Of a DNA stretch of 64,000 nt, positions 1,361-56,336 are shown piece after piece (position 1 is the first letter of the stretch; each line of letters begins with the position of its first letter). The notes under the pieces were generated by a model. The model worked only from the letters and a program-made list of their open reading frames with translations. It was not told the origin of the DNA and did not search any database. This stretch comes from Candidatus Omnitrophota bacterium. GTDB taxonomy: Bacteria > Ratteibacteria > UBA8468 > B48-G9 > JAFGKM01. Location: the NCBI GenBank assembly GCA_023819375.1, contig JAMWDI010000001.1:124001-188000 (forward strand). Direction: 5' to 3'. The position numbers were made by a program, and so were the translations under genes.

Positions 1361-1399
1361 TTGAAAGTTTTCTTTAAAAAATTGAAAGTTTTCTTTAAA
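1361..1399. repeat. Two-copy tandem repeat, 21-bp period
   Basis: TTGAAAGTTTTCTTTAAAA occurs at 1361-1379 and again at 1382-1400, in the gap between pfp and the diguanylate cyclase gene. The second copy supplies the TTGAAA -35 hexamer of the cyclase promoter. The repeat could be a binding site pair or a small slippage duplication. Confidence 0.8.
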
Positions 1400-1410
1400 A
1401 GAGGTATTAT
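1382..1410 (+). promoter_or_regulatory. Sigma-70-type promoter of the diguanylate cyclase gene
   Basis: TTGAAA (1382-1387), a 17-nt spacer and TATTAT (1405-1410) match the housekeeping consensus. Only 9 nt separate the -10 box from the ATG at 1420, so transcription should begin within about 3 nt of the start codon. The gene has no well-placed Shine-Dalgarno sequence, which points to a leaderless message. Confidence 0.65.
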
Positions 1411-1419
1411 ATCTTTTAA

Positions 1420-2664
1420 ATGGAGGAAAGAAAATTAATAATAAGATTGAGTGAAATTTTATTATTTATAGTATTTACTACTGTTCTATTTTATGCTTTT
1501 GCTTTTTCTGAGCCTTTAAAACCATTGAAATTAATTTTAAAAGAGATGTTGCCCTCCTTAGGAATTACTCTGTTTTTTCTTTTTTTATGTTTTAGAACTA
1601 TTGAATACTATCATAATCAGATTTTAAAACAAAAAAAATTGAATGAGGAATTAAACGATTCTTTATTCAAATTAAGTTCAGATTTAAAAATTGAGAAACT
1701 GCTTCAAAATTCACTTGAAATTCTAATGAAGTTTTACGAAGGAGATATTGGAATATTATCAATAATTGGGGATGATCTAAAAAAATTTGTTTCGACAGAT
1801 GTAATTACAATAAACATTAATAATAAGTCAAATATTGAAAGGTTTGAAAAAAATAAAAATTGTGTTTATGTGACAATTTCGCCAGATAAAATTTCGGTTA
1901 AAGAAGAAAATTTAATAAAAAAATTAATTAATGAGTATGGATTACAAAGTTGTATGGGTATAATTGTTTTTCCCATTTATACAGAAAAAGTGACAAAAGC
2001 AATAGGTATTATAGGGATTTACAAGAAGAAAAAGAAAGAAATTTTAAGAGATATTAGTAAAATCAAAATAATTAGTGAAGTTTTTATGCAACATTTAAAT
2101 CTTGAAATTGAAAATTCTCTTTTAAATGAAAAATTGAATTATGCTTCAATAACAGATGCTTTAACAGAAGTTTATAACAGAAGATATTTTAATATAAGAT
2201 TGAAAGAAGAATTTGCAAGAGCAAAAAGAGAGGGATATCCTGTCTCAATAATGATTTCAGATCTTGATAATTTCAAAAAATATGTTGATACTTATGGCCA
2301 TCCTATGGGAGATATTATTTTAAAAGAACTTGCCAATTTACTTAAATATTCTATCAGAGAAACAGACATACTTTGTAGATTTGGTGGAGATGAATTCGCT
2401 TATATTCTACCTTTTACTCCAAGTAAAGAAGCCCAGATAGTTGCAGAAAGATTAAAATCAAATGTAGAAAACTATAGATTTTTGAAAGAATATATAAATG
2501 ATAAAGATGTAAAATTAACATTAAGCATTGGAATTGCAACTTTTCCAGAACATGGAAATACTGAAGAAGAAATTTTGTCAAAAGCAGATAATGCTCTTTT
2601 TCAAGCAAAAAATATAGGAAAAAATTTAGTTATAGTTTATAGTGAAAATGGAGGAACAAAATGA
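1420..2664 (+). CDS. Membrane-bound diguanylate cyclase (GAF-like plus GGDEF)
   Basis: Makes cyclic di-GMP from two GTP. Two hydrophobic segments (about residues 11-29 and 43-60) anchor it, followed by a helical linker, a GAF-like sensory region (about 90-235) and a GGDEF domain (about 245-410). The active loop GGDEF is intact at 322-326. An RxxD inhibitory site (Arg-Glu-Thr-Asp, 313-316) sits exactly five residues before it, so feedback inhibition by c-di-GMP is expected. One oddity is that the FKxxN motif reads FKKYV, so Val289 stands where the guanine-contacting Asn usually is. Its stop overlaps the next gene by 4 bp. The 460-residue HD-GYP gene 3 kb away could be its antagonist. Confidence 0.9.
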   Translation: MEERKLIIRLSEILLFIVFTTVLFYAFAFSEPLKPLKLILKEMLPSLGITLFFLFLCFRTIEYYHNQILKQKKLNEELNDSLFKLSSDLKIEKLLQNSLEILMKFYEGDIGILSIIGDDLKKFVSTDVITININNKSNIERFEKNKNCVYVTISPDKISVKEENLIKKLINEYGLQSCMGIIVFPIYTEKVTKAIGIIGIYKKKKKEILRDISKIKIISEVFMQHLNLEIENSLLNEKLNYASITDALTEVYNRRYFNIRLKEEFARAKREGYPVSIMISDLDNFKKYVDTYGHPMGDIILKELANLLKYSIRETDILCRFGGDEFAYILPFTPSKEAQIVAERLKSNVENYRFLKEYINDKDVKLTLSIGIATFPEHGNTEEEILSKADNALFQAKNIGKNLVIVYSENGGTK

Positions 2665-3224
2665 TCAAGGAAATTCCGTTACTTTTATATTTGAATTCAC
2701 TAACTTTTATAATTTGGATAATTACAACTATTCTTTTCAGAATTAAAAAAGTAAAAGGATTTGTTGCATTAATTCTATCATTGATATTTACATTTTTTGT
2801 TTTTTATTATAATTATCTCATTTTGTTTGAAAAACCAACCTTACAAAGTTTTGAAAAATATGAAAATATGGGAAAAATAATTTTAAAACCACGAGTTGAA
2901 GAACATAAAGAAAGCCCTGAAATTTTTCTATTTGTAAAAATAAATGATAGTGTAATTAAAATAGGACTTGGTGATGAAATTGAAATCAAAAAAAATACTA
3001 CTTTTACAATTGAAGATGTTGAAGGAATTGATAAAGAAAATTTAAAAGTAAATTTTGTTGGTTTTGTTGGAAATCAAAAATATAATGATGGTCAAGATAT
3101 TGGATATAAAATTAATTATAAAGATTTGAGAAAAAATAAAGCAATTGAAAAGGATAAATATGAAATTGAGATTAAAAAGAAAGATAAAAAAATTGGATCT
3201 GTTTTCGTTAAATTTGTAGATTGA
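2661..3224 (+). CDS. Unknown membrane-anchored protein
   Basis: I do not recognise this 187-residue protein. Two hydrophobic helices (about residues 6-27 and 33-55) form an N-terminal anchor, and the remaining 130 residues are charged and rich in predicted beta strands, including a segment resembling a small PilP/PDZ-like beta domain, though that is weak. It begins inside the ATGA overlap with the diguanylate cyclase gene, so the two are translationally coupled and probably work together at the membrane. It is followed after 1 bp by the radical SAM gene. Confidence 0.7.
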   Translation: MIKEIPLLLYLNSLTFIIWIITTILFRIKKVKGFVALILSLIFTFFVFYYNYLILFEKPTLQSFEKYENMGKIILKPRVEEHKESPEIFLFVKINDSVIKIGLGDEIEIKKNTTFTIEDVEGIDKENLKVNFVGFVGNQKYNDGQDIGYKINYKDLRKNKAIEKDKYEIEIKKKDKKIGSVFVKFVD

Positions 3225-3225
3225 A

Positions 3226-4134
3226 ATGGTTTCTTATCTTATGTTAGAGTTGTCTGAAATTGAAAAACGTTCTTTTTTGCTTTTTGAAAAGTTGAAAAAT
3301 TGTAATTTATGTGGTTGGGAATGTAATATTGATAGATATTCTAAAAAATCTCATTGCAGAAGTGGGATTGAACTTAAAATTTCAAGTTATGGACCACATT
3401 TTGGAGAAGAAAGGATAATTTCTGGAAAAAGAGGATCAGGAACCATATTTTTCACAAATTGCTCATTAAAATGTGTTTACTGTCAAAATTATGATATAAG
3501 CCAACTTGGAAATGGATATGTAATTTCAGAAGAGGATCTTTCAAATATAATGCTTAAATTACAAAATTTAGGATGTCATAATATTAATCTTGTCACACCA
3601 ACTCATTTTTTGCCTCAGATTTTAAAGGGAATTTTTCTTGCAATAAAAAAGGGCTTGAAAATTCCATTTGTGTATAATTGTGGCGGATATGAAAATGTAG
3701 AAACACTAAAAATTCTGGATGGTATAATTGATATTTATATGCCAGATGCAAAATATGGAGATAACGAAAAAGGTAAAAAATACTCTGGAATCCCTGATTA
3801 TTGGGATAAATGCAAAAGGGCCTTGATTGAAATGAAAAGACAAGTTGGAGATATAGTTTTAAATGAAGAAAAAGTTGCAATAAAAGGACTTTTAATAAGA
3901 CATCTTATTCTTCCAAATGATATTTCCTCAACAGAAAAAGTTTTAAAATTTATTAAAGAAGAACTTGGTGAAAATACCTGGATAAGTTTACTAAGTCAAT
4001 ACCATCCTGAATATAAAGCCTATATGTATCCAGAAATAGATAGAAGAATTACTTACGAAGAATATTATAAATCTGTTGAAATTGTTGAAAAAATTGGTTT
4101 GAAAAATGTTATTTATCAGGGATTTTTAATATGA
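3226..4134 (+). CDS. Radical SAM protein, PflX/pyruvate-formate-lyase-activase-related
   Basis: The 302-residue protein has the radical SAM cluster motif CSLKCVYC around residues 80-87, preceded by an unusual Cys-rich N-terminus (CNLCGWEC near 25-32 and another Cys near 43) typical of the PflX-like group. A Pro-Thr-His segment (NLVTPTHFLP) and an N-C-G-G-Y motif follow, as in that subfamily. These enzymes bind a 4Fe-4S cluster and cleave S-adenosylmethionine; a few activate glycyl-radical enzymes, but no such substrate gene is near. Two in-frame ATGs (3226 and 3241) are possible; neither has a clear ribosome site. It overlaps tmk by 4 bp. Confidence 0.85.
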   Translation: MVSYLMLELSEIEKRSFLLFEKLKNCNLCGWECNIDRYSKKSHCRSGIELKISSYGPHFGEERIISGKRGSGTIFFTNCSLKCVYCQNYDISQLGNGYVISEEDLSNIMLKLQNLGCHNINLVTPTHFLPQILKGIFLAIKKGLKIPFVYNCGGYENVETLKILDGIIDIYMPDAKYGDNEKGKKYSGIPDYWDKCKRALIEMKRQVGDIVLNEEKVAIKGLLIRHLILPNDISSTEKVLKFIKEELGENTWISLLSQYHPEYKAYMYPEIDRRITYEEYYKSVEIVEKIGLKNVIYQGFLI

Positions 4135-4802
4135 AAAAAAGCATAATTATAAGTTTTGAAGGTATTGATGGTTGTGGAAAAACGACAATTGTTAAAAAAT
4201 TTTATAAATATTTAAAAAAGAAAAAATTAGATGCAATAGTTCTTCACGAACCAGGTTCTACGCATGTTGGAGAAAAAATAAGAAGAATTTTACTTAATAA
4301 AAATATAAGCATAAACAAATACTGTGAATTATTTCTATATCTGGCAAGTAGAATACAATTAATTGAAGAAAAAATTAAAAAATATTTTGACAAAAATAAA
4401 ATTATTATTTTAGATAGATACATTGATTCTACTTTTGCCTATCAAGGATATGGAAGAAAAATCCCATTGAAATTTATTGAAAAAATACACAAAAAACTTA
4501 TTTCTCCAAAATTTATTCCTGATATTACATTTTTAATTGATGAGAAACCAGAAAACTTAATAAAAATTCTTAAAAACAAAAAGGCTGATAGAATAGAAAA
4601 GGAATCTATTGAATTTCAGAAAAGAGTAAGAAAGGGGTATTTAAAACTTGCAACGAAAAACAAAAGGATCAAAATAATAAGAAGAGAAGATGAAGAAACA
4701 ACTTTTAAAAAAGTTTTAAAGGAATGGGAGACTTTCTTAAATGAAAACAGAGGAAATAAAAAAATTTTTTCTAAAATCAAAGGAAAAAAACAGAATATTT
4801 AA
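4131..4802 (+). CDS. tmk: Thymidylate kinase
   Basis: Phosphorylates dTMP to dTDP in DNA precursor synthesis. The P-loop FEGIDGCGKTT lies at about residues 8-18, the EPGST dTMP-binding segment near 42, and the DRYIDSTFAYQGYGR substrate motif near 98, all standard for the family. At 223 residues it is slightly longer than usual because of a lysine-rich tail that overlaps the start of holB by 62 bp. The tmk-holB pairing is common in bacteria and supports both assignments. Confidence 0.95.
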   Translation: MKKSIIISFEGIDGCGKTTIVKKFYKYLKKKKLDAIVLHEPGSTHVGEKIRRILLNKNISINKYCELFLYLASRIQLIEEKIKKYFDKNKIIILDRYIDSTFAYQGYGRKIPLKFIEKIHKKLISPKFIPDITFLIDEKPENLIKILKNKKADRIEKESIEFQKRVRKGYLKLATKNKRIKIIRREDEETTFKKVLKEWETFLNENRGNKKIFSKIKGKKQNI

Positions 4803-5592
4803 TGCATATATAATTTATGGGGGGAACAAAAAAGAAAGAGAAGAAATTGCTCTTTTTTTTGCTGGTGTTTTGAATTGTAAAAATGAAAATTACTGTGAAA
4901 GTTGTGAAAATTGTAAAAAAATAAAAAATAAAAGCCATCCAGACATAAGATGGGTTATTCCAGAAAAAAGCATTCTTTCAATTGATGATGTGAGGGAAAT
5001 CAAAAAAGATCTTTTTATTCAGCCATATTCAGGTAAATATAAAATTTATATTTTTCAAATTGAATATATAAAAGAAGAAGCAAGCAGTGCTTTTTTGAAA
5101 ATTTTAGAAGAACCACCTCCTTATGGAATTTTAATTCTTCTTGTTCCAAATATAAATTTCCTACTTCCCACAATTATTTCAAGATGTTTTAAAATTTATT
5201 TAAATTATAAATTACCAGATTATAATAAAGAAATGGAAAAGGCAAAAGAAGAATTCTGGGAACTGATAAAAGATGTTGAAAATAAAAATTTCTTTGATTT
5301 TTTCAAAAAAATAGATTTTATGAGCAAAAACAAAGAAAGAGAAGAAGTGGAAAAATGGATAGAGGATATATTGTATTACATAAGAGATTTATTTTTACAA
5401 CTGAATAATTTCCCTCAAAGTTTTTTAATAGATAAAAATTTAAAGAATGAAAAACATTGGACCTTTGAAATTTCTTTAATAGAAAAGATATGGAATATAA
5501 AACAAAGAATAAGGTATAATATAAACGTAAAACTTGCACTGGAAAATATAGTATTTCAAGTTATTTTAAATAGTTTAAAATTTGACAAATAA
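4741..5592 (+). CDS. holB: DNA polymerase III delta-prime subunit (clamp loader)
   Basis: Part of the clamp loader that opens the beta clamp. The 283-residue protein shows a four-cysteine zinc module (Cys at about 36, 42, 45, 48) and the delta-prime/DnaX core: SIDDVREI, an acidic ALxxxEEPP-type segment (FLKILEEPPP) and the SRC motif (IISRC). The Walker A loop is degenerate (GGNKKERE), as usual in delta-prime, which does not hydrolyse ATP. The ATG at 4741 lies inside tmk with GGGAG 11 nt upstream; the next Met comes too late to include the N-terminal strand, so this long overlap is probably genuine. The tRNA gene begins 3 bp after its stop. Confidence 0.9.
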   Translation: MKTEEIKKFFLKSKEKNRIFNAYIIYGGNKKEREEIALFFAGVLNCKNENYCESCENCKKIKNKSHPDIRWVIPEKSILSIDDVREIKKDLFIQPYSGKYKIYIFQIEYIKEEASSAFLKILEEPPPYGILILLVPNINFLLPTIISRCFKIYLNYKLPDYNKEMEKAKEEFWELIKDVENKNFFDFFKKIDFMSKNKEREEVEKWIEDILYYIRDLFLQLNNFPQSFLIDKNLKNEKHWTFEISLIEKIWNIKQRIRYNINVKLALENIVFQVILNSLKFDK

Positions 5593-5595
5593 AAT

Positions 5596-5679
5596 GCCGA
5601 AGTGGCGGAATGGAAGACGCGCCAGGTTCAGGACCTGGTGAGGTAAAACCTCGTAGGGGTTCAAATCCCCTCTTCGGCA
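5596..5679 (+). tRNA. tRNA-Leu, anticodon CAG
   Basis: A type II tRNA with perfect seven-base acceptor stem (5596-5602 with 5672-5678), anticodon stem CCAGG/CCTGG and loop TTCAGGA, so the anticodon CAG is at 5629-5631. It has a long variable arm (GAGGT/ACCTC) and a T-arm GGGGTTCAAATCCCC. The discriminator base is A, expected for leucine. No 3' CCA is encoded, so the CCA-adding enzyme at 34.8-36.3 kb is needed. It sits 3 bp after holB with no separate promoter in view and is probably cut from that transcript. Confidence 0.97.
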
Positions 5680-5690
5680 ATAATTAATTT

Positions 5691-7073
5691 CTAACAATCT
5701 TCAAAAGTAAAACCTCTTTTGAAAATTTTTAAAGTTTTCTTTACGACTTCGCCATCATAAAGTATATTAGAATTATTTTTTATTTCTTCCAATGCTCTTT
5801 CCAGTAAAAGTTTTGGTCTATAAGGTCTATGAGAACTCATTGCCTCAACAACATCTGCAACAGACAGAATTCTTGATTCCAAAATAATCTCTTCACCCTT
5901 CAATCCAAACGGATATCCACTACCATTTAATCTTTCATGATGTTGAATAATAATCTTAGCGATATCCCATGGAAATTCTATATTTTTAACGATATTAGCA
6001 CCATATTCAGGATGCATTTTTATAAAATCCCATTCAATATTATTTAATTTACCAGGTTTGGCAAGAATATCTGTTGGGATATAAATTTTTCCTATATCAT
6101 GTAACAAAGAAACAATCTTCATTCCTTCAATCAAACTCCCTGAAAATCCTAATTCTTTTGCAATTTCTACTGACAATTTTGCCACTCTTTTTTGATGATT
6201 AAAAGTATATGGATCCCTTTGTGTTAACGTTTCAGACAAAGCCATCACTGCTTGATTTAACATCCTTTTTGTACTATTTATAGCCTCCCTCAAATTTTCA
6301 ATCATCATTTTCCTTTCGGTAACATCTCTAAAACATAATAGAATACCTTCTTCATTAATAAAATTAATTTTTTTCCCTATTGTTTCTATAAAAAATCTTG
6401 CTCCTTTACTATCTCTTATTTCATGTTCTATAAAATAACCACTTTTATTTTTATTTACAAGTTTCAGATTCTGCTCAAATTCTTCTTTATTTATAATAAA
6501 ATCAAAAAGATTTTTTCCGATAAAGTTTTCAACTTTATCATACCCAAATAAATTTGCTCCTATAAAATTTGAAAAAAGAACCCAGCCTTCTTTATCAATA
6601 ACGACTATTCCATCAAGAAGTGTTTCTGTTAAAATCTTATATTTCTCTTCAGATTCTTTTATTTTCAAAAAAGAAACTTTTTCCTCTGTAATATCTCTTA
6701 CTATTGCTACTCTTAAAGTTTTATCTTTATATTTAATATTCTTAACTTTAACCTTAAGAATAATTTCCAAGCCATCCTTTCTGGTACATCTTGTCTCAAA
6801 TTCGCCTTCCTTTTCTTCTTTTAATATTTCCAACCAAAAATTTTTTTCACTTTCACTACATAAATCCCATATTTTTTTCCCAATTATCTCATTTTTCTCA
6901 TATCCAAAAATTTCTGCATATTTTTCATTGCAATATATAATTTCTCCTCTATAATTAATACTGAACCCCTCTCCAATCATCAAACATATATTTTTCAAAA
7001 TTTCATTATTTAAAAACCCCTTCTCTATTTCTTTTCTCAATATTTCTAACTCATCTTTATTATTCTTTTTCAT
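5691..7073 (-). CDS. PAS-PAS-HD-GYP cyclic di-GMP phosphodiesterase
   Basis: Likely degrades c-di-GMP. The 460-residue protein has no membrane segment. Two PAS domains occupy about residues 20-130 and 145-255, each ending in a PAC-like RDITEEK or RDVTERK. The HD-GYP domain (about 275-455) has the HDIGK metal pair near 328, a conserved His-Pro-Glu-Tyr-Gly, and HHERLNGSGYP, the GYP signature (the usual Asp-Gly is Asn-Gly). The metal-binding ADVVEAM and RPYR segments are also present. A TATAAT (7089 to 7084) lies 10 nt before the ATG and there is no Shine-Dalgarno site. It is the nearest plausible partner of the diguanylate cyclase at 1.4 kb and of PilB. Confidence 0.92.
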   Translation of the reverse strand: MKKNNKDELEILRKEIEKGFLNNEILKNICLMIGEGFSINYRGEIIYCNEKYAEIFGYEKNEIIGKKIWDLCSESEKNFWLEILKEEKEGEFETRCTRKDGLEIILKVKVKNIKYKDKTLRVAIVRDITEEKVSFLKIKESEEKYKILTETLLDGIVVIDKEGWVLFSNFIGANLFGYDKVENFIGKNLFDFIINKEEFEQNLKLVNKNKSGYFIEHEIRDSKGARFFIETIGKKINFINEEGILLCFRDVTERKMMIENLREAINSTKRMLNQAVMALSETLTQRDPYTFNHQKRVAKLSVEIAKELGFSGSLIEGMKIVSLLHDIGKIYIPTDILAKPGKLNNIEWDFIKMHPEYGANIVKNIEFPWDIAKIIIQHHERLNGSGYPFGLKGEEIILESRILSVADVVEAMSSHRPYRPKLLLERALEEIKNNSNILYDGEVVKKTLKIFKRGFTFEDC

Positions 7074-7083
7074 TTTTGTAAAG

Positions 7084-7089
7084 ATTATA
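7084..7089 (-). promoter_or_regulatory. -10 box of the HD-GYP gene
   Basis: On the minus strand TATAAT ends 10 nt before the ATG at 7073, just beyond the stop of the preceding Clp1-like gene. No good -35 hexamer is seen at 16-18 nt, and there is no Shine-Dalgarno sequence. It could give a nearly leaderless message independent of the upstream genes. Confidence 0.45.
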
Positions 7090-7984: not shown

Positions 7985-8856
7985 TTTGCAACTAAATACC
8001 CTATTATTTTGTAAATTAATTTTCCACACATTAAAGAAGAGGAAGTAAATATCTTTGAGGGAGAAAGTTCTACAAGATCAAAACCACAAATTTCAATGTC
8101 TTTCCTAAAAATTAAATTTTTCAAAAATTCATTTGTTTCCTCCCAGTAAAAGCCCCCAGGTTCAGGTGTTCCAGTTTCTGGAATTAGTGATGGATCAAAA
8201 AAATCAACGTCAATTGAAAGATAATATTTTCCAGACGGTATCTCATTTATTATCTTCTCCATCCATTTTTCTTTTTTCATTTGATAAGAATAATAAATTT
8301 TTATTTTTCTATTACCTTTTAAAAACTCAAATTCCTCTTTACTTATACTTCTAACCCCTAAAATGTAAAGACTGCAATTCTCTTCATAAATTCTTTTGTT
8401 AACACAGGCATGGGAATATTTTGTTCCATTATATTTTTCTCTTAAGTCAGAATGGGCATCAAGACATATATAATTTAAATCATTAAAATACCTTTTATAT
8501 GCTCTGAATAATCCCAAAGTTATTGTGTGTTCTCCTCCAATTCCAATAACAAATTTATTTTTTTTCAAATAAGAAGATATTTTTTTTTCTATTTTCTTGA
8601 TCATTTTCTCAGGAGAAGAAAAATCAATTTCAAGTTCGTCTTCAGTTTTTATCCCTATTTCATAAGGTTCAATTTCAAGTTCTTCATCAAAAAGTTCAAA
8701 ATTTCTTGAAGAGTAAATTATACTGATAGGAGCAAATTTTGTTCCTGAATTACCAGTAAGTGTACATTCATATCCAATAGGAAAAATTATAAATTTTGCT
8801 TTTTCAAAAGACACTTCTGGTATAGAAAGAAAATTAAAAGGAATTTTGTTCTCCAT
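7963..8856 (-). CDS. speB: Agmatinase / arginase-family ureohydrolase
   Basis: Hydrolyses agmatine to putrescine and urea, or a related guanidino substrate. The 297-residue protein has the manganese-binding motifs of the ureohydrolase fold in order: GIGGEHT (about 99-105), LDAHSDLR (about 131-138), a His in SHACV, and SIDVDFFDP (about 219-227), with TPEPGG downstream. The agmatinase-type length and motifs favour agmatinase over arginase. It begins the minus-strand agmatinase, Clp1-like, HD-GYP run and is divergent from pilB; a TATAAT lies on the minus strand at 8888 to 8883. No speA or other polyamine gene is in the window. Confidence 0.88.
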   Translation of the reverse strand: MENKIPFNFLSIPEVSFEKAKFIIFPIGYECTLTGNSGTKFAPISIIYSSRNFELFDEELEIEPYEIGIKTEDELEIDFSSPEKMIKKIEKKISSYLKKNKFVIGIGGEHTITLGLFRAYKRYFNDLNYICLDAHSDLREKYNGTKYSHACVNKRIYEENCSLYILGVRSISKEEFEFLKGNRKIKIYYSYQMKKEKWMEKIINEIPSGKYYLSIDVDFFDPSLIPETGTPEPGGFYWEETNEFLKNLIFRKDIEICGFDLVELSPSKIFTSSSLMCGKLIYKIIGYLVAKWKNLKF

Positions 8857-8881
8857 TTTACTTTTATTTTTTTTATGTTAA

Positions 8882-8890
8882 TATTATACA
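8882..8890. promoter_or_regulatory. Shared -10 region between speB and pilB
   Basis: The segment reads TATTATACA on the plus strand and contains TATAAT on the minus strand (8888 to 8883). The plus-strand TATTAT ends 9 nt before the pilB ATG at 8897, and that start has no Shine-Dalgarno site. -35 hexamers are weak on both sides. Confidence 0.4.
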
Positions 8891-8896
8891 ATAAAT

Positions 8897-10564
8897 ATGG
8901 AAAGAAAAGAATTAGGACAGATTTTACTTGAAAAGGGTTTAATTACGCTTGAACAATTAAATGAAGCACTTGAATTACAAAATGAAACAAAAAAATTTCT
9001 GGGAGAAATACTTATTGAAAAAGGTTATATAAAAAAAGAAGATATCTGGCAAGCATTAACTGAACAAAAAAAAGCAGATTCTGTGTCTCTATCAAAACTA
9101 AAAGGTTTAAAGCCAGAAATTGTAAAAATTATAGATGAAAATATAGCAAGAAGGTTTATTTGTATTCCAATAGCAAAAGAAGATGATATTTTGGTAGTTG
9201 CAATGAAAGATCCAGCCGATATAGTTGCAATAGATACTTTAAGAAGACTAACAGGATATAAAATTAAAGTAGTTAAAGGTGATGAAAAAGAAATAATTGA
9301 GTTTTTAGATAAATTTTTCTCTAGTTTTGACACTTTTCCAGAAACAATTTCAGAACTTGAAGAAATTTCAGAAGAAAAAGAAGAATTAGACGTAGATCAA
9401 CTTAAAGTTGCTGCTGAAGATGCACCTGTGATTAAATTTGTCAATTCTTTATTTGCAAATGCTATTGAAAAAAGAGCCACGGATATTCATCTTGAACCAG
9501 GTGAAAGAAATGTTTATATAAGATTCAGAATAGACGGTGTCCTTTATAATTTTACTTCACCTCCAAAAAGTTCATATCCTGCAATTGTAACAAGAATTAA
9601 AATTTTATCAAATCTTGATATTGGAGAAAGAAGATTACCACAGGATGGAAGATTTAAGATAAAATTAAGAGAAAAAGAAGTTGACGTAAGAGTTTCAACT
9701 CTACCTACTATTTATGGGGAAAAGGTAGTTTTAAGATTATTAGATAAAGAAAAACTTGTTTTAGATTTAGAAATGCTTGGATTTGAAAAAGAAGAATTAG
9801 AAAAATTCAAAAAAGCATTGAAAAGACCATATGGAATGATAATAGTAACAGGACCAACTGGAAGTGGGAAAACAACAACTTTGTATTCTGGATTGAGTTT
9901 TATAAACACCCCTGAAAAAAATATAATTACAATTGAAGATCCTGTTGAATATCAACTTGAAGGAATAAATCAGGTTCAGGTTAAACCTAAAATAGGATTA
10001 ACATTTGCAAATGTATTAAGACATATTTTAAGACAGGACCCAGATGTAATTATGGTTGGCGAAATAAGAGATTTAGAAACTGCTCAAATAGCAATTCAAG
10101 CCTCTTTAACTGGACATCTTGTTATAACTACTTTACATACAAATGATACTGTATCTACAATTTCTAGACTTTATTATATGGGCGTAGAACCATATCTTAT
10201 AGCAGACGCAGTGACTATTGTTATTTCACAAAGATTGGTAAGAAAAATTTGTAGTGAGTGCAAAATAATTGATAAGAAAGATACAGAAACACTTAAAAAT
10301 TTAGGATATAAAGAATTTATTGCATATAGAGGGAAAGGATGCTCTTTTTGTAATTACACAGGGTATTATGGAAGAATAGGAATTTTTGAAGTTTTAGAAT
10401 TTACAGAAGGGATAAGAGAAATGATTCTTAATAAAAAAAGTGATGACGAAATACGGGATTATGCTATAAAACTTGGCATGAAAACTTTAAAAGAATCTGC
10501 TATAAAAAAGGTCATTGATGGAATTACATCTCTTCCTGAAGCAATGACGGTAACAATTATATGA
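8897..10564 (+). CDS. pilB: Type IV pilus extension ATPase PilB with MshEN-like N-terminus
   Basis: Powers pilus assembly at the inner membrane. The 555-residue protein has an N-terminal region with two tandem motifs of the LGxxLxxxG...LxxxLxxQ pattern (about residues 6-28 and 34-57), the signature of MshEN domains that bind c-di-GMP. The ATPase domain has Walker A GPTGSGKTT (319-327), the Asp box TIEDPVEYQ, Walker B VGEIRD, and the His box. A four-cysteine zinc module (Cys452, 455, 482, 485) is standard for PilB/GspE. Its stop overlaps pilT by 4 bp. The start has no Shine-Dalgarno site. Since pilT, pilM-Q and pilins follow, PilB is preferred over GspE. Confidence 0.95.
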   Translation: MERKELGQILLEKGLITLEQLNEALELQNETKKFLGEILIEKGYIKKEDIWQALTEQKKADSVSLSKLKGLKPEIVKIIDENIARRFICIPIAKEDDILVVAMKDPADIVAIDTLRRLTGYKIKVVKGDEKEIIEFLDKFFSSFDTFPETISELEEISEEKEELDVDQLKVAAEDAPVIKFVNSLFANAIEKRATDIHLEPGERNVYIRFRIDGVLYNFTSPPKSSYPAIVTRIKILSNLDIGERRLPQDGRFKIKLREKEVDVRVSTLPTIYGEKVVLRLLDKEKLVLDLEMLGFEKEELEKFKKALKRPYGMIIVTGPTGSGKTTTLYSGLSFINTPEKNIITIEDPVEYQLEGINQVQVKPKIGLTFANVLRHILRQDPDVIMVGEIRDLETAQIAIQASLTGHLVITTLHTNDTVSTISRLYYMGVEPYLIADAVTIVISQRLVRKICSECKIIDKKDTETLKNLGYKEFIAYRGKGCSFCNYTGYYGRIGIFEVLEFTEGIREMILNKKSDDEIRDYAIKLGMKTLKESAIKKVIDGITSLPEAMTVTII

Positions 10565-12866: not shown

Positions 12867-12883
12867 AAAAATATAAAAGAAGA

Positions 12884-12894: not shown

Positions 12895-12897
12895 AGA

Positions 12898-13272
12898 ATG
12901 AAAAAAAATAAAAAGAAAGGTTTTACTTTGATTGAATTGATGACAGTGGTAATTATTGTTGGAATTTTAGCGTCAGTTGCTGTTCCTCTTTATAGAGGAC
13001 AAGTCAAAAGAGCAATGGCAGCAGAAGGAGCAGCATTACTTGGTTCTGTAAGAACTGCTGAAAGAGTCTATTATGCTGAACATGGAAAATATACAGATGA
13101 TAAAACAAAACTGGGGATAGATACAACTGGAAACAAATATTTTAAAGATTATACGATTACACTTACAGGTGGAGGCACTGGATTTATCGCAACAACAACT
13201 GGAGAAGGAGATGCTGCAGGAATTACTGTATCCATTGACCAGGATGGAAATTTAACTTATTCTGGAATTTAA
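12898..13272 (+). CDS. pilA: Major type IV pilin, copy 1
   Basis: The 124-residue prepilin has a short basic leader (nine residues, KKKG) cleaved before FTLIEL, with Glu at position 5 of the mature protein, then a hydrophobic alpha-helix that forms the pilus core. The globular part includes AERVYYAEHGKYTD and a Gly/Thr-rich beta region (LTGGGTGF) with no Cys pair. It differs from the next gene at only eight residues. A dedicated promoter and strong ribosome site suggest high expression. The prepilin peptidase PilD is not in this window. Confidence 0.95.
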   Translation: MKKNKKKGFTLIELMTVVIIVGILASVAVPLYRGQVKRAMAAEGAALLGSVRTAERVYYAEHGKYTDDKTKLGIDTTGNKYFKDYTITLTGGGTGFIATTTGEGDAAGITVSIDQDGNLTYSGI

Positions 13273-36262: not shown

Positions 36263-36621
36263 CTTTCAATTCCATATATAACTTCTTCTATTTCAATAAA
36301 GTCAACCTTATAACCCTTTAAAAGTTTTTTCAAATTGCCTTTACCAATTGAATTAATTGGAACTATTAAATTTTGAGAAATTAAGAAATTCTTTCCAACT
36401 TTTACATATCCACCATTTTTACCAGACAATAATACACCTATGTATCCTTTTTCATCCTTGCATAAATAACCATTTACTGGTGTATTTGTGAAGTTTGAAA
36501 AATTGCCCCACACACTACAAACCCTCATTCTTCTTATTTTTCCTATTTCATCCCTTATTTTTATACTTTTTATCTCAACCTTATTTAATCCTATTTCAAA
36601 TTTACCTATTTTTTTCCACAT
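36259..36621 (-). CDS. Unknown conserved-looking protein
   Basis: 120 residues with no membrane segment or motif I recognise; the sequence alternates hydrophobic and polar residues, suggesting a small beta barrel (for example VCSVWGNF, then VNGYLCKDEKGYIGVLLSGKNGG). It overlaps the MFS gene by 20 bp upstream and cca by 4 bp (ATGA) downstream, so it is translationally coupled and probably a real gene. Confidence 0.7.
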   Translation of the reverse strand: MWKKIGKFEIGLNKVEIKSIKIRDEIGKIRRMRVCSVWGNFSNFTNTPVNGYLCKDEKGYIGVLLSGKNGGYVKVGKNFLISQNLIVPINSIGKGNLKKLLKGYKVDFIEIEEVIYGIER

Positions 36622-37750
36622 TTTTCATATTTATTTTTTGTAAATATAAAAAAATCAAAGAAATGATTTCTACAATGAAAACATAAAACCAAATAATTTT
36701 AAAATTTCTTTCATATAAAAAGCCAACAATTCCACTGCCAATAAAAAGTCCAAATCCATAAATAGTATTGAAAATTCCATATACAAATCCTCTTTGACTA
36801 ATTCTTACTAAATCTGCAATAACTGCCCTTAAAATCGTTTCATGACACCCTATAATTATACCCAAAATTATTACTCCTAATAGAGGAAAATTGAGATTAA
36901 AAATTAAAACAGGGATAAATATTGTAAAAACTGGAACAACAATCAAAGTTTTAAATTTTATTCTATCATATAAATTTCCTATAATTAACGCGATAATTCC
37001 ATCGATTGCCATAGAGAGTGTATAAAAAAGAGGAATGTTAGAAAGAGGGATAGTATTTTTAATATGATAAGCAATAATTGGAAAGTTTACAAGACCCACT
37101 ATTGAAAAAAATATAAAAAATAAATAGAAAATCAGTGAATAATTTGGACTTTCTTTATCCTGTTTAATTTCTTTTATCTCAACAGCAAAACTGTAAATTT
37201 TTTTTAAGATAATAATTACGCAAACAAGAAAAAAACATGGAAACCACATCAAATGAAAGGCAAAAGAATAGTTTCCAAATTTTTTAAGTGAATAAAAGAA
37301 TATAAATGGACCTAAAAATGCTCCAATCTGATCCAGTACCTCGTGAATACCAAAACTTTTTCCATATCCAATATTCTTACCAACAATTGAAATTAAAACA
37401 TCTCGTGCAGGTGTTCTAATAGCCTTTCCAGTTCTTTCAATTAGTAGCAATAAAACTGCAATTTCCCAACTTTTTGCAAAAGCGAGCAATGGAAGAAAAC
37501 AAATTGAAAGATATCCTATAATTGTAAATAACCAATATGACTTTTTTTTGTCAGAAAAATATCCAGTAAAAAATCTTAAAGAATATGTTAAAAACTCACC
37601 TAATCCAGAAAAAAAGCCAATTATGAAAGCACTTGCCCCAAGAGAAGCAAGAAAAGGGCCATTTATACTTCTTATTCCTTCATAAACAATATCACCGAAT
37701 AAACTTACTAAACCAAAAAGTAGTATTATATAAAATGCTTGATTTCTCAT
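36602..37750 (-). CDS. Major facilitator superfamily transporter
   Basis: 382 residues from the ATG at 37750, with about twelve hydrophobic segments and the MFS loop GYFSDKKKSYWLF (between segments 2 and 3, about 60-72) and ERTGKAIRTPARD, found in a conserved branch of uncharacterised exporters. The substrate is unknown. A TTG at 37792 could add 14 residues but lies in the nusA promoter region. It is the first gene of the minus-strand run leading to EndoQ. A TATAGT (37768 to 37763) lies 12 bp before the ATG and there is no Shine-Dalgarno site. Confidence 0.85.
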   Translation of the reverse strand: MRNQAFYIILLFGLVSLFGDIVYEGIRSINGPFLASLGASAFIIGFFSGLGEFLTYSLRFFTGYFSDKKKSYWLFTIIGYLSICFLPLLAFAKSWEIAVLLLLIERTGKAIRTPARDVLISIVGKNIGYGKSFGIHEVLDQIGAFLGPFIFFYSLKKFGNYSFAFHLMWFPCFFLVCVIIILKKIYSFAVEIKEIKQDKESPNYSLIFYLFFIFFSIVGLVNFPIIAYHIKNTIPLSNIPLFYTLSMAIDGIIALIIGNLYDRIKFKTLIVVPVFTIFIPVLIFNLNFPLLGVIILGIIIGCHETILRAVIADLVRISQRGFVYGIFNTIYGFGLFIGSGIVGFLYERNFKIIWFYVFIVEIISLIFLYLQKINMKNVEKNR

Positions 37751-43303: not shown

Positions 43304-43304
43304 A

Positions 43305-45014: not shown

Positions 45015-45028
45015 AAGGAGAAATAAAT

Positions 45029-46054: not shown

Positions 46055-46056
46055 AA

Positions 46057-47199: not shown

Positions 47200-47200
47200 A

Positions 47201-50341: not shown

Positions 50342-51458
50342 CAAAAATCTTATGAATTTTCTTAATCTCGTCCCTTATTTTTATTTTCTGTGGACATTTT
50401 TTTTCACATTCACCACATTCTATACACTCATCTGCTTTTTTTCTTGTATCATTTTTTTCTAATCCTATATTTCTATATTCTTTCACAAATTTTTCAGATC
50501 CTAAAAGTATAAAATTGTTATAAAGATTAAATATAAATGGCACTGGAATATTTCTTGGACAGGGCATACAGTAATTACATGACGTACAAATTATTTCGCC
50601 AATCTTTTTTCTCTCTTCTATAATATTTTCAATCAATTTTATTTCACTTTCATCAAGAAATTCATTTGAACTGGCAATTTTAACATTTTCTTCAACCATC
50701 TCCATAGAACTCATACCTGAAAGAGCAACTGAAACATTTTTATTTGAAAAAACAAACTTCAAAGCAATTTCAACAGGTGATTTATATTTTTCTTTAAAAA
50801 CATTCATAAGATATGGAAACTCACTTAAACGTCCACCTGCTATAGGACCCATAACAGCAACTCCAATTTCTTTTTTGGCAACATATTCAATATTTTCTTC
50901 ATTACTTCTATCAATCAAATTATACTGACATAAAACTGTTTCAAAAATATCACAACTATCAATAATTTTTCTCATATTCTCAGGTTTGTCATGAAAAGAA
51001 AAAGAAATATGTTTTATCAAACCCTCTTCTTTTGCTTTTATTGCTTCTTCAATAAGATTTAATTTCAATACTTTTTCTTCAAAATTTTGTAAGTTCAAAC
51101 TATGAAAATGATAAAAGTCAATATAATCTGTATCAATTTTTTTTAATTGTTCTTCAAGAAATTTCCTATAATCTTCTCTCTTTTCCACATTCCATATAGG
51201 ACATTTTGTTGAAATATAAATCTTTTCTCTAATTTCTTTTACTGCTTTTCCTACAATTATCTCACTTTGACCTTCGCAATAACCATAAGCAGTATCTATA
51301 TAATTTATCCCCAATTCTATACCTCTTCTAATAATTGCAATCGAAAGATCTTCATCTATTACTCTTTTGCCATTTATTTCCTTATAAGGAAGACGCATTG
51401 CACCAAATCCAAGCAATGAAACATAAACACCAGTTTTGCCAAATTTTCTATATATCAT
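50331..51458 (-). CDS. Aldo/keto reductase with ferredoxin-like Cys clusters
   Basis: 375 residues. The AKR barrel begins [24 protein letters not shown] and has [15 protein letters not shown] (about 53, with the catalytic Asp and Tyr). The C-terminal part contains [11 protein letters not shown] (about 294-304) and [12 protein letters not shown] (about 350-361), suggesting bound 4Fe-4S clusters, a subclass seen in anaerobes. The substrate is unknown. It is divergent from the macro-domain gene. Confidence 0.88.
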
Positions 51459-51461
51459 ATT

Positions 51462-51490
51462 TTGCTCTTTTCTTTATTTTTTATTATAAT
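51462..51490 (+). promoter_or_regulatory. Promoter of the macro-domain gene
   Basis: TTGCTC (51462-51467), a 17-nt spacer and TATAAT (51485-51490). The ATG at 51501 is 10 nt beyond the -10 box and has no Shine-Dalgarno site; the message is expected to be leaderless or nearly so. Confidence 0.6.
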
Positions 51491-51500
51491 ATTCAAAAAA

Positions 51501-52049
51501 ATGGTAAAAATCAATAATATAGAAATTGAATGTGTAAAAGGTGATATCACAGAGCAAAAGGATATTGACGTAATTGTAAATGCTGCAAATAAATATTTAA
51601 GCCCCGGTGGAGGAGTTGCAGGAGCAATACATAAAAAAGCAGGGCCTTTACTCTATGAAGAATGTAAAAAATATGCACCTATTAATACAGGAGAAGCAGT
51701 AATAACAAAAGGATATAATTTGCCAAACCCTTATGTAATACACACTGTTGGACCAGTTTACTCTGAAGAAAAAAATCCAGCAGAAAAATTAACTTTATGT
51801 TTTAAAAATTCTTTAAAACTTGCTGACAACAAGGGATTAAAATCAATTGCCTTCCCAGCAATTTCAACAGGAATATTTGGTTACCCTGTTGAAGAAGCGA
51901 GTGAAGTCTCAATAAAAGCAGTTTTAGAAACAATTCCAGAATTAAAATCAATAAAACTGATAAGATTTGTTTTATTTGATGAAAAAACCTATTCTATTTT
52001 TGCTCAAAAATTGGAAGAACTTACAAAAAAGAACGAAAGAAAAAGTTAA
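51501..52049 (+). CDS. Macro-domain ADP-ribose-binding protein
   Basis: 182 residues from the ATG at 51501. IECVKGDITEQKDIDVIVNAANKYL at the start, GGGVAGAIHKKAG (about 37-49) and STGIFGYPVEEA near 125 are the macrodomain signature of the MacroD/YmdB type, which remove ADP-ribose from proteins or hydrolyse O-acetyl-ADP-ribose. The long open frame from 51462 extends into the promoter and is disregarded. No PARP or ADP-ribosyltransferase is in the window. Confidence 0.9.
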   Translation: MVKINNIEIECVKGDITEQKDIDVIVNAANKYLSPGGGVAGAIHKKAGPLLYEECKKYAPINTGEAVITKGYNLPNPYVIHTVGPVYSEEKNPAEKLTLCFKNSLKLADNKGLKSIAFPAISTGIFGYPVEEASEVSIKAVLETIPELKSIKLIRFVLFDEKTYSIFAQKLEELTKKNERKS

Positions 52050-52089
52050 TTAAATACTGAGATTGGTTTACAGACTTAATGTTCATCAC

Positions 52090-52118
52090 AAATTTTGAAG
52101 TTTTCAAAAACAAAATTT
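52090..52118. terminator. A/T-rich inverted repeat between convergent genes
   Basis: AAATTTTG (52090-52097) pairs with CAAAATTT (52111-52118); a smaller TTTTGAA-GTT-TTCAAAA hairpin lies inside. It sits between convergent macro-domain and LOG-family genes. GC content is too low to expect a strong terminator; listed as a possible weak bidirectional element. Confidence 0.3.
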
Positions 52119-52125
52119 AAAATTT

Positions 52126-52767
52126 TTATACTTTTCTTTTATAAAAAGTTTCAATAACCCTAACTGCATCTTCAGGTTCATTTACAATTTCAAATATTTT
52201 AAGGTCTTCTTTGTCAATATATCCTCTTTTTAAAAGTATATTTTCCATCCAAGAGATAAATCCTTGCCAATAATTTTTATCCATCAAAACAACAGGAAAT
52301 CTATGAACTCTCTTTGTTTGTATTAACGTAATTGCTTCTGTAAATTCATCAAGAGTTCCAAAACCTCCAGGAAATATTACAAATCCTTTAGCGTATTTTA
52401 CAAACATAACTTTCCTTGTAAAAAAATATCTAAATGAAACCAAAGTTTTTATATATGGATTTGGTTTCTGCTCTTCAGGTAATTCAATATTTAAACCAAT
52501 TGATTCACCACCTGCAAGTGTTGCCCCTTTATTGCCTGCCTCCATTATACCTGGCCCCCCACCTGTGATTATAGTATATCCTTTCTCTGCAAGTAATTTG
52601 GCAGTAATAACTGCTTTTTCATACCATTCATCCCCTGGCTTTATCCTTGCAGAACCCCATATAGTAACTGCTTTTTTTACTTTCTCAAGCATTTCAAAAC
52701 CATCAACAAATTCTGCCATTATTCTAAAGATTCGCCATGCCTCTTCCTCATATTTACTCTTTTTCAT
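52126..52767 (-). CDS. LOG-family (TIGR00730) phosphoribohydrolase
   Basis: 213 residues. GGGPGIMEAGNKGA (about 69-82) and PGGFGTLDEFTEA (about 131-143) are the motifs of the LOG/TIGR00730 family; members cleave ribose 5-phosphate from cytokinin-type or purine nucleoside monophosphates. SARIKPGDEWY near residue 40 fits the same family. The physiological substrate in bacteria is often unknown. It overlaps the NfeD-type gene by 14 bp. Confidence 0.87.
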   Translation of the reverse strand: MKKSKYEEEAWRIFRIMAEFVDGFEMLEKVKKAVTIWGSARIKPGDEWYEKAVITAKLLAEKGYTIITGGGPGIMEAGNKGATLAGGESIGLNIELPEEQKPNPYIKTLVSFRYFFTRKVMFVKYAKGFVIFPGGFGTLDEFTEAITLIQTKRVHRFPVVLMDKNYWQGFISWMENILLKRGYIDKEDLKIFEIVNEPEDAVRVIETFYKRKV

Positions 52768-54031
52768 TTTTAATTTCCTCCACTATTAAAGTAAGTCCTT
52801 TAATATCAACAACTTTTACTTTTTTATTTTTTGGAATAATACCAGAAGTACTTCTTGCTTTCCAATATTCTCCATGAATAAAAATCATTCCTTCTGGATT
52901 AAGATCCGAAATCACTTTTCCTTCTTCTCCTATAAGTCCCTCTTTTCCAGTAATTATTCTTCTTCTTTTTGTTCTCCAAGCAAACCAGATAATAAACCAA
53001 ATAAATATACTTGCAAATACACTTACAAAGAAAATTGTTGAAATAGGAATTTTAATCATTGAGCCTTTTTTGAATAACATTAACGAACCAAGAACAAAAC
53101 TGATAATTCCAGAAGTGATAAAGATTCCAAAAGTAGGAGTAATTGCTTCAAGGGCAAAAAATATAAAACTTAAAATTATCAGAATTATTCCAGCAAGATT
53201 TATAGGCAATGTATGGAGCCCAAAAAAAGCCAGTATAAGAGCAATAGTTCCGACAATTCCAGGTATTCCAAAACCAGGATGTGACAATTCAAAAATTATT
53301 CCCCATATACCAATAACAAGTAAAAGATAAGCAATATTTGGATCAGATATAAATTCTAAAATTTTGTCCCTTATTTCAGGTTTGGCTTCCTTAATCTCTG
53401 TTCCTTTTGTCCTAAGCACAATTTCTCGAGTTTTGGTCTTTACTTTCCAATTGTCTATTTTATCTAATAAATCATCTATATCTTTTGCTTTTAAATCAAT
53501 AACATTTTCTTTCAGTGCCTCTTCTTCTGTTGATGAAATGCTTTCTCTCACTGCTCTTTCTGCCCATTTTTCATTTCTATTTCTGTGTCTTGCTATTGTC
53601 TTTATAAAACTTACAGTATCATTTACAATCTTTTCTTCCATCTTTTTATCCATTTCTCCACCCATTAAAGTAACTGGATGGGCTGCACCAATATTTGTTG
53701 CAGGAGCCATAGCAAGGATATGAGCAGAAAGTGCTATGAAGGTTCCGGCAGATGCACATTGAGCACCACTAGGATAGACATAACAGATTACAGGTATTTC
53801 AGAAGATAAAATTTCCTGAACTATTTTTCTTGTTGAGGAAAGAAGGCCGCCAGGAGTATCAAGTGTTATCAATACAAAATCTGCCTTATTTTTTGTAGCC
53901 AACGAAAGGACATGTTTCACTTGATAATAAGTAACCGGCCCTATTGCACCGTCAATTTTTAAAATATATCCAACTGAAGGAAAAACTAAATTTACCAGAA
54001 ATACAAAATATAATAAAATTAACTTTTTCAT
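52754..54031 (-). CDS. NfeD-type membrane protease (ClpP-like serine domain)
   Basis: 425 residues. A signal-anchor segment (about 3-18) leads to a ClpP-class protease domain with the nucleophile Ser94 in CASAGTF and a Lys nearby (DKKMEEK). Four to five C-terminal membrane helices (about 225-345) follow, with a small NfeD OB-fold at the C-terminus (LIGEEGKVISDLNPEGMIFIHGEYWKARS). In bacteria, NfeD proteins often pair with stomatin or flotillin; no stomatin is seen here. It overlaps the M24 gene by 4 bp. Confidence 0.88.
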   Translation of the reverse strand: MKKLILLYFVFLVNLVFPSVGYILKIDGAIGPVTYYQVKHVLSLATKNKADFVLITLDTPGGLLSSTRKIVQEILSSEIPVICYVYPSGAQCASAGTFIALSAHILAMAPATNIGAAHPVTLMGGEMDKKMEEKIVNDTVSFIKTIARHRNRNEKWAERAVRESISSTEEEALKENVIDLKAKDIDDLLDKIDNWKVKTKTREIVLRTKGTEIKEAKPEIRDKILEFISDPNIAYLLLVIGIWGIIFELSHPGFGIPGIVGTIALILAFFGLHTLPINLAGIILIILSFIFFALEAITPTFGIFITSGIISFVLGSLMLFKKGSMIKIPISTIFFVSVFASIFIWFIIWFAWRTKRRRIITGKEGLIGEEGKVISDLNPEGMIFIHGEYWKARSTSGIIPKNKKVKVVDIKGLTLIVEEIKNEKE

Positions 54032-55113
54032 TTTATTTGAATGTCAGGTCTCAAAATTTCTTCACCATTCACTTCAATTTTTAATAATGGCCAGTTTTTA
54101 TCTTCCGTAATTATTAGTGGTTTTTCTTCTGTTGTAATTATAGTATCTTCTGATTTTGTCCCTGTTATTGAAGGATTCCAAGCATATGCTTGATTTTCTT
54201 TGACTAAAAATTCACTTTTTTCTGTTGCTCTAAAATATCTTGTTAAATAACCAGTAGGTCCACCTTGGTGATGTTTTTTCCATTCATTTCCAAAACCTTC
54301 TTTCTCATACGCTTTTATACCTTCTTTAAAAACTTCTCCAATAGTTTTTCCTCTTCTTGTTGAATTGATAAATATAGCATCAATTTTACAAACAGAAAGA
54401 TGTCTTTTTCTCAATTCATTTGGTAAATCGCCAAAATAAACAAAACGAGTTAAAGATACTATTAAACCTTTTCTCCTTCCACAGAGAACAATCATAACAT
54501 GTTTTCTTATTTTATTTTCTGTTGGAATTGGATGTCTAAATCTTTCAATTCTTTCGTCGCCAGCAATTAAAATAACAATAGGGACAATATTTTTATACCA
54601 TAATTTTTCACTTAATTTTCCTGCTATTTCAATTTCTTTTTCTCCCTGTTTTATTTCTTTACACACTTCTGTCACAACTTCACTTGCATCTCTTCCTAAT
54701 TTTTTATATCTTTCTAATTCTTCAGGCAAAAGCGGATAGTGCAATTTTTCTAAATTTATCTGCACATAATCAGGGATGAATACGTCGGAACCAATTTTTC
54801 CTGAAATAATTTTTTTAATTTTCTCATCAAAATTTTCACCAAACCAGTTTTCCACGATTGGTTCAAATCCATAATCACCCAACTCTTCTTCATTAATCCT
54901 TGGATGTTCAATGTTGTTTGTAATATAATAGATTTTTTCTTTGGTAATGAGTAACTTACAAACTCCAATTTCTGTATGAAGTCCAACATAATTAATTTTT
55001 CCACCAGTAAACCAGGCAAAATTACTTACTTTATTTATCAAAACACCTTTAATCTTCTCTCTTTCCATCAATTCCAAAATTCTTGACCATTTAATTTTTA
55101 TTTCATTTTCCAT
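54028..55113 (-). CDS. M24-fold protein lacking metal ligands (creatinase-like)
   Basis: 361 residues with the pita-bread fold of Xaa-Pro peptidases and creatinase. An N-terminal domain leads to a C-terminal domain with the HHQGGPTGYLTR His segment (about 280). The two Asp of the canonical dinuclear site are absent: the region reads CGRRKGLIVSLTRFVYFG, where peptidases have Asp in both positions. The later Glu is retained only in SEDTI; the first reads NPSI. Creatinase likewise lacks metal, so this may be a C-N hydrolase. A GATAAT 8 nt before the ATG suggests a leaderless message. Confidence 0.82.
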   Translation of the reverse strand: MENEIKIKWSRILELMEREKIKGVLINKVSNFAWFTGGKINYVGLHTEIGVCKLLITKEKIYYITNNIEHPRINEEELGDYGFEPIVENWFGENFDEKIKKIISGKIGSDVFIPDYVQINLEKLHYPLLPEELERYKKLGRDASEVVTEVCKEIKQGEKEIEIAGKLSEKLWYKNIVPIVILIAGDERIERFRHPIPTENKIRKHVMIVLCGRRKGLIVSLTRFVYFGDLPNELRKRHLSVCKIDAIFINSTRRGKTIGEVFKEGIKAYEKEGFGNEWKKHHQGGPTGYLTRYFRATEKSEFLVKENQAYAWNPSITGTKSEDTIITTEEKPLIITEDKNWPLLKIEVNGEEILRPDIQIK

Positions 55114-55121
55114 ATATTAAA

Positions 55122-55150
55122 ATTATCTCTTATATTGAATTTTTTTGCAA
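55122..55150 (-). promoter_or_regulatory. Promoter of the M24-fold gene
   Basis: On the minus strand TTGCAA (55150 to 55145), a 17-nt spacer and GATAAT (55127 to 55122), with the ATG at 55113 only 8 nt beyond the -10 box. It overlaps the divergent promoter of the URO-D gene. Confidence 0.55.
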
Positions 55151-55163
55151 AATAATTTATAAT
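55135..55163 (+). promoter_or_regulatory. Promoter of the URO-D family gene at 55.2 kb
   Basis: TTGAAT (55135-55140), a 17-nt spacer and TATAAT (55158-55163), with the ATG at 55173 only 9 nt beyond the -10 box and no Shine-Dalgarno sequence. It interleaves with the divergent M24 promoter. Confidence 0.65.
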
Positions 55164-55172
55164 AAAAACCTT

Positions 55173-56336
55173 ATGAATGGAAAAGAAAGAGTTTTAAATG
55201 CGTTCAACCATAAAGAAAGTGATTACGTTCCTATTGGAGACCAATTGATTGTCTCAAAAGTTGCATCTGAAATTTTAGGGAGATATGCTTATACCGGTGG
55301 GGGAGAATTTTCAAAAGATACAATAGAACTGCTATATAAAGGAGAAAGGGATTTTCTTGTTGAAAGATATGTAGAGGATACAGTTGAAATTCACGAAAAA
55401 TTAGGGCTTGATTTTATTAGAGTTGGGCTTGTCCCTTCAAAAAATTATTCAAAAGATGAACTTCCTAAAAAAATTGATGAAAATACATATCTTTTTGAAG
55501 ATAAAGAAATTAATAAATGGTCAATATATAAATTTTCTCCAGAATCCGGCCAATTCTTTTGTGTTTCTTCATCTCTTGATAAAAATGGCTTTGAAGAAAT
55601 AGAAAAAGAAATTGAAATTTTAGAAAAAAAATTAGGAGAAGAGATTAAATTTGAAGATAAAAGTATTTTTGAAGGCTGGGATAAAATAGTTGAAAGAGTT
55701 AAAGGGAAAATGGCAATTGCTTTTTCAGTTGGAATTTCAATTCCGATTAAACCAATTTATCTTGAATGTCTTATTTTAAAACCGGACTGGATAGAAATTT
55801 ATCTTGATTATCATACAAAATGGGCAATTGAATTTATAAAAGAAAGTAAAAAACATGGAGCAGATTTTATCCTCGGTGGTGGAGATCTTGCAGATAAAAA
55901 TGGTCCAATTTACAGTCCTGAAATTTTTAGAAAATTCTTAATGCCAAGATATAAAAAAATATTGGAAGTCTGTCATAATCTGGGACTTTATTATGTATTC
56001 AGAAGTGATGGCAACACAAGACCTTTATGGGATATCTGGTTTTTAGAAATTTGTTTTGATGGTTATGGAGAAATTGATAAATCTGCTGGAATTGAATTGA
56101 AGGAACTTAAAGAAAAATATGGAGAAAAAATAACACTCCTTGGAAATATTGATTGTTCAAAGACACTTATTTATGGAACTAAACAAGAAATATATAAAGA
56201 AGTAGAACAATGCATCAGAGATGCAGCAAAAGGCGGTGGATATATTTTAACCTCTTCTAATAGTATTCACTATAATGTACCTGCAAAAAATTTAATTTAT
56301 ATGATTGAAGCAGGAAGAAAATTTGGTAAATATTAA
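55173..56336 (+). CDS. Uroporphyrinogen-decarboxylase-family protein (MtaA/CmuA-like)
   Basis: 387 residues with the URO-D fold. The start NGKERVLNAFNHKESDYVPIGD is typical of the corrinoid methyltransferase branch (MtaA, CmuA) rather than HemE. A GGGDLADKNGPIYSPEIFRKFL segment near residue 232 and the LLGNIDCSKTL region near 325 match this branch. No heme genes are nearby. A corrinoid protein partner is not seen. It ends 2 bp before leuB on the other strand. Confidence 0.85.
   Translation: MNGKERVLNAFNHKESDYVPIGDQLIVSKVASEILGRYAYTGGGEFSKDTIELLYKGERDFLVERYVEDTVEIHEKLGLDFIRVGLVPSKNYSKDELPKKIDENTYLFEDKEINKWSIYKFSPESGQFFCVSSSLDKNGFEEIEKEIEILEKKLGEEIKFEDKSIFEGWDKIVERVKGKMAIAFSVGISIPIKPIYLECLILKPDWIEIYLDYHTKWAIEFIKESKKHGADFILGGGDLADKNGPIYSPEIFRKFLMPRYKKILEVCHNLGLYYVFRSDGNTRPLWDIWFLEICFDGYGEIDKSAGIELKELKEKYGEKITLLGNIDCSKTLIYGTKQEIYKEVEQCIRDAAKGGGYILTSSNSIHYNVPAKNLIYMIEAGRKFGKY

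Follow-up and report, generated by a model that had tools for sequence, protein, structure and literature searches.

The window is a stretch of 64,000 nt (positions 124001-188000 of its contig) from a genome of 1.73 Mb in 13 contigs. Six genes in it, a diguanylate cyclase gene (DGC), an HD-GYP gene, pilB, a macro-domain gene, an M24-fold gene and a URO-D gene, have a -10 hexamer next to their start codon. All six hexamers and start codons were found where a preliminary description of this DNA had placed them. The start regions and genes are listed below; distances before ATG are counted from the last base of the -10 box.

1382..1422, plus strand: DGC promoter and start (TTGAAA 1382-1387, 17-nt spacer, TATTAT 1405-1410, 9 nt, ATG 1420)
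1420..2664, plus strand: diguanylate cyclase (GGDEF) gene (Pfam PF00990, E=2.9e-47)
5691..7073, minus strand: PAS/HD-GYP (HD_5) gene (Pfam PF13487, E=1.2e-35)
7071..7089, minus strand: HD-GYP start (TATAAT 7089-7084, 10 nt, ATG 7073)
8882..8899, plus strand: pilB start (TATTAT 8882-8887, 9 nt, ATG 8897)
8897..10564, plus strand: pilB, T2SSE ATPase with MshEN domain (Pfam PF00437, E=2.4e-143)
12898..13272, plus strand: pilin-like gene (N_methyl motif, PF07963), a contrast belonging to the SD-led set
36602..37750, minus strand: MFS transporter gene (PF07690), a further predicted leaderless gene (ATG 37750, posterior 0.90)
51462..51503, plus strand: macro-domain promoter and start (TTGCTC 51462-51467, 17 nt, TATAAT 51485-51490, 10 nt, ATG 51501)
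55111..55150, minus strand: M24-fold promoter and start (TTGCAA 55150-55145, 17 nt, GATAAT 55127-55122, 8 nt, ATG 55113)
55135..55175, plus strand: URO-D promoter and start (TTGAAT 55135-55140, 17 nt, TATAAT 55158-55163, 9 nt, ATG 55173)

A -35 hexamer at exactly 17 nt, proposed for four of the genes, was recovered for DGC, URO-D, M24-fold and macro-domain; HD-GYP and pilB have no -35 at 16-18 nt spacing in the window. Leaders of 0-3 nt had been predicted, and the measured gaps give 2-4 nt instead if transcription begins 7 nt past the box. The macro-domain and URO-D assignments were confirmed by Pfam (PF01661, E=1.1e-43, and PF01208, E=1.6e-20, respectively). The M24-fold protein matches nothing in Pfam at 1e-6 and keeps the label of the preliminary description. 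Its gene and the URO-D gene are divergent, with an intergenic region of 59 nt. Leaderless posteriors from a position-weight model were 0.96 (DGC), 0.92 (macro-domain), 0.82 (M24-fold), 0.72 (URO-D), 0.66 (HD-GYP) and 0.54 (pilB). At least one more window gene, the MFS transporter, is predicted to fit the leaderless type beyond the six listed earlier.

Start regions in orthologs

The 3' end of the 16S gene of the same genome reads GGATCACCTCCTTTCTT, and canonical Shine-Dalgarno (SD) pairing is therefore available in this organism. SD sites had been described as absent from all six genes, which holds in general but not for DGC, which carries an SD-like GAGGT at 1401-1405, 14 nt before ATG (predicted pairing -7.2 kcal/mol). 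Upstream regions of orthologs were compared by eye on few sequences. A genus ortholog of DGC (65% identity) has the arrangement TTGAAA-17-TAAAAT-6-ATG without an SD site, so that GAGGT appears unconserved, being gone from an ortholog with the same promoter layout. A direct repeat of about 20 nt (ttgaaagttttctttaaaa) occupies window positions 1361-1400, just upstream of the DGC -10 box, and its second copy provides the -35 hexamer.

For pilB, the -10 element is common to genus relatives, and one family relative has TTGACA-17-TATACC-7-ATG; at the order level most orthologs have an SD site. The top-scoring box of the model was not TATTAT at gap 9 but the neighbouring TAATAT at gap 12. For URO-D the start type is not kept: the genus ortholog has SD-like AGGAAAAGAGG instead. 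In one genus relative the URO-D ortholog (G001:C9:2606-3702) gives two overlapping matches, one of them interrupted by many in-frame stops, and looks degraded or misassembled.

On anatomy, HD-GYP is the weakest of the six cases. Its TATAAT shares bases with the TAA stop (7087-7085) of a co-directional gene 11 nt upstream. HD-GYP might accordingly be an ordinary operon gene translated by re-initiation after that gene, the TATAAT being merely the upstream gene's 3' end. The overlap, the missing -35 and a posterior of just 0.66 speak for this account, but a -10 box also precedes ATG in two HD-GYP orthologs (56% and 68% identity), by 9 nt in one and 7 nt in the other (TTGACA-16-TAAAAT-9-ATG and TGG-TAAAAT-7-ATG), one of the two having TTGACA at 16 nt. 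We regard re-initiation at this gene as a serious contender with somewhat less than even odds. In these comparisons the adjacent-promoter start types of DGC, HD-GYP and pilB appear to recur in genus-level orthologs.

Adjacent promoters across the genome

For genome-scale counts, 786 kb (45% of the same genome, 28% GC) were sampled as stretches. Genes were called with a home-made hexamer-model caller and the 5'-most ATG was taken as start, a rule that is blind to promoters and SD sites. In the raw window TATAAT-N8-10-ATG was not enriched (6 found versus 5.6 expected from shuffles); therefore real gene starts and more of the genome were needed. A 'displaced start' control was dropped, since it picks up genuine promoters of SD-led genes.

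The short -10-to-ATG distance put forward for the window genes was borne out in this sample, where distances compared with shuffles peaked at gaps of 7-10 nt, solely among unit-heading genes that lack an SD site. Among 63 divergent SD-less genes, 15 had exact TATAAT at this gap (dinucleotide-preserving shuffles: mean 0.57, max 4, n=300), against 0 of 42 divergent SD-led genes; outside the window, 13 of 53 divergent SD-less genes carried it. Corresponding counts were 13/2558 for internal ATGs, 3/46 (SD-less) and 0/54 (SD-led) for co-directional genes more than 30 nt apart, and 4/231 (SD-less) and 0/208 (SD-led) for close co-directional, operon-like genes. In SD-led genes the -10 box was shifted to a gap of about 22. 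Of 203 unit-heading genes, the position-weight model assigned about 25% to the leaderless class, with a gap mode of 8. As a leadered contrast, a short ORF ahead of the 16S gene (L001:1141-1210) combines a TTGACA and a TATAAT box with a strong SD site, GGAGGTGA.

The strongest evidence, independent of gene selection, is the -35 element at 17 nt. Of the 45 predicted leaderless genes, 15 have TTG separated from the -10 box by exactly 17 nt, against a shuffle mean of 1.2 and a maximum of 6 (0/1000 shuffles reach 15). Without window genes the count was 12/41, a value never reached in 1000 shuffles (mean 1.0). No excess of TTG at 17 nt was seen among operon-like SD-less genes. With 0/1000 shuffles reaching the observed TTG count, the adjacent -10 boxes can be assigned to putative sigma-70 promoters. 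Enrichment among the 45 predicted leaderless genes of T at -1 (47% versus 21%) and of G at +4 (56% versus 32%) would fit transcription beginning at the A of the start codon.

Expectation-maximisation on the relatives' genomes drifted to the SD motif, SD genes having been left in, and gap peaks in relatives are for this reason given as raw gap counts. They lay at 6-8 in the family relative and 6-7 in the order relative; two genomes of other lineages had little gap peak, and class-level samples were too small. The nearest named relatives of pilB are MAGs, one labelled Candidatus Omnitrophota.

At the level of sequence, these data demonstrate the promoter geometry and its significance, the lack of SD sites and the recurrence in relatives. 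The reading of the starts as leaderless, or as having leaders of 1-4 nt, is well supported by them, and from it we infer where transcripts begin and how ribosomes bind them. The best explanation, to which we give a probability of roughly 0.88, is genome-wide leaderless expression with the signalling genes as ordinary members of the class. The housekeeping sigma-70-type RNA polymerase would use TTGACA-like/TATAAT-like promoters beside start codons, and transcription would start at the start codon or 1-4 nt before it. The 5'-AUG would presumably be bound directly by the 70S ribosome, or by a 30S subunit together with IF2 and initiator tRNA, SD pairing playing no part. About one quarter of unit-heading genes would be leaderless, DGC, HD-GYP and pilB among them as ordinary members. 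Many other unit-heading genes would have the same kind of promoter at least 20 nt upstream together with an SD site, and few operon-internal genes would have an adjacent -10 box.

Alternatively, transcription could start further upstream and initiation proceed without SD sites on A/U-rich unstructured leaders with the help of S1, the -10-like hexamers being an AT-rich coincidence. The low GC content, the presence in the genome of an S1-like protein carrying five S1 matches, the many SD-less operon-internal genes, the lack of a -35 at pilB and HD-GYP in the window and the chance-level pattern count over the window would all fit. However, the gap peak was reproduced by 0/300 dinucleotide-preserving shuffles, and TTG at the 17-nt spacing is in excess although the -35 played no part in selection; we therefore consider such leadered initiation improbable.

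Functions of leaderless and SD-led genes

For functional comparison, 40 proteins on the leaderless side (37 predicted leaderless, HD-GYP and two divergent partners from outside the set) and 40 SD-led proteins were scanned with Pfam; names such as MurG are our reading of the domains. The leaderless set includes domains of UvrB, class I tRNA synthetases (E/Q and W/Y groups), EF-P, phosphoglucomutase, TilS, DAP epimerase (DapF), GT28 (MurG-like), threonine synthase, an ATP-synthase alpha/beta-family subunit and YgbB, and the regulator domains of LacI, AraC and ROK proteins. By these domain assignments it consists mostly of housekeeping genes together with regulators of all kinds. The split put forward earlier, leaderless starts for signalling and SD-led starts for housekeeping genes, is therefore not seen. 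In the SD set, EF-G, S2, L25, Hsp70 (DnaK), thioredoxin, SecG, NusA, pilin-like proteins and a porin were found. Several of these products are expected to be abundant (EF-G, S2, L25, DnaK, pilin, porin), and an association of SD sites with abundant products is possible.

Searches of the genome for GGDEF, HD_5 and T2SSE gave 15 genes with a scorable start, a set that was itself prompted by the earlier finding. Among these c-di-GMP/pilus ATPase genes, 5 of 7 unit-heading but 1 of 8 operon-internal genes were leaderless; start type therefore follows position in the transcription unit. Other unit-heading genes were leaderless in 48 of 200 cases (one-sided p=0.013 for the signalling genes against these). 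Without the two window genes of the discovery, 3 of 5 unit-heading signalling genes remained (one-sided p=0.10), and the enrichment is suggestive at most. Signalling categories are generally low in leaderless genes (Zheng 2011, PMC3160421). Separate translation conditions for the two gene sets, as suggested in the preliminary description, are not inferable from DNA. That leaderless starts let c-di-GMP/pilus genes be translated when SD-led translation is low is highly improbable: the p=0.013 excess and the recurring start types of DGC, HD-GYP and pilB in genus orthologs favour it, but the excess weakens outside the window, leaderless genes are mostly housekeeping, most order-level pilB orthologs have an SD site and start type follows unit position.

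Known leaderless systems and divergent promoters

Leaderless genes with an adjacent -10 box are established in many bacterial phyla, their Pribnow box lying about 12 bp ahead of the start and taking the form TAtAAT in low-GC genomes (Zheng 2011, PMC3160421). The present genome shares with them a sigma-70 -10 at a fixed short distance, the absence of SD sites and the presence of SD-led genes alongside, but belongs to another lineage and has the first T 13-16 bp upstream. In Deinococcus-Thermus (PMC12340547, 2025), TANNNT lies about 6-7 bp upstream in nearly one third of all genes, with no pathway bias among -10-adjacent ORFs. Here, too, -10 boxes directly precede ORFs without pathway bias and beside ordinary SD-led genes, but the element is TATAAT at 7-10 nt and the share is about 25% of unit-heading genes. 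With its mode at 8 nt, the gap exceeds the Deinococcus distance by 1-2 nt, and many transcripts may therefore carry leaders of 1-4 nt. According to the GeneMarkS-2 predictions of Lomsadze 2018, in the portion quoted in PMC9581028, leaderless use occurs in 21.6% of bacterial species; such genomes resemble this one in a genome-wide mix of SD-led and promoter-adjacent starts. A literature search combining leaderless with Omnitrophota found no study on point.

Judged from the sequence comparisons, genome-wide leaderless expression would here be a real mode shared within the lineage, that is, a known mechanism in a further lineage. An uncultured lineage is added to the bacteria with predicted genome-wide leaderless expression, and gene-calling software that learned from SD sites may put its starts in the wrong place. 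The independent -35 peak at 17 nt amounts to a sequence test usable on genomes without RNA data.

Where divergent genes are separated by 16-60 nt, the -10 boxes of the two strands often overlap, TATAAT being partly symmetric in AT-rich DNA. Within the window, such overlaps lie at 8882-8888 (pilB/arginase) and 51482-51491 (macro-domain/aldo-keto reductase). In the former, the TATTATA of pilB reads TATAAT on the minus strand (8888-8883), facing the arginase-family gene that starts at 8856. Bidirectional promoters with symmetric -10 elements are known (PMC12825309); a possible likeness consists in the overlapping boxes on both strands between these two divergent gene pairs, which are combined here with predicted leaderless starts. 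It is conceivable, though rather doubtful, that divergent genes commonly share a single symmetric -10 box, one gene being leaderless and the other having a short leader or an SD site. If so, a shared symmetric -10 would allow divergent intergenic regions of 16-60 nt, and leaderless starts, coupled to bidirectional promoters, would serve to compact the genome. Among the pairs with overlapping boxes, one gene is sometimes leaderless and its partner SD-led.
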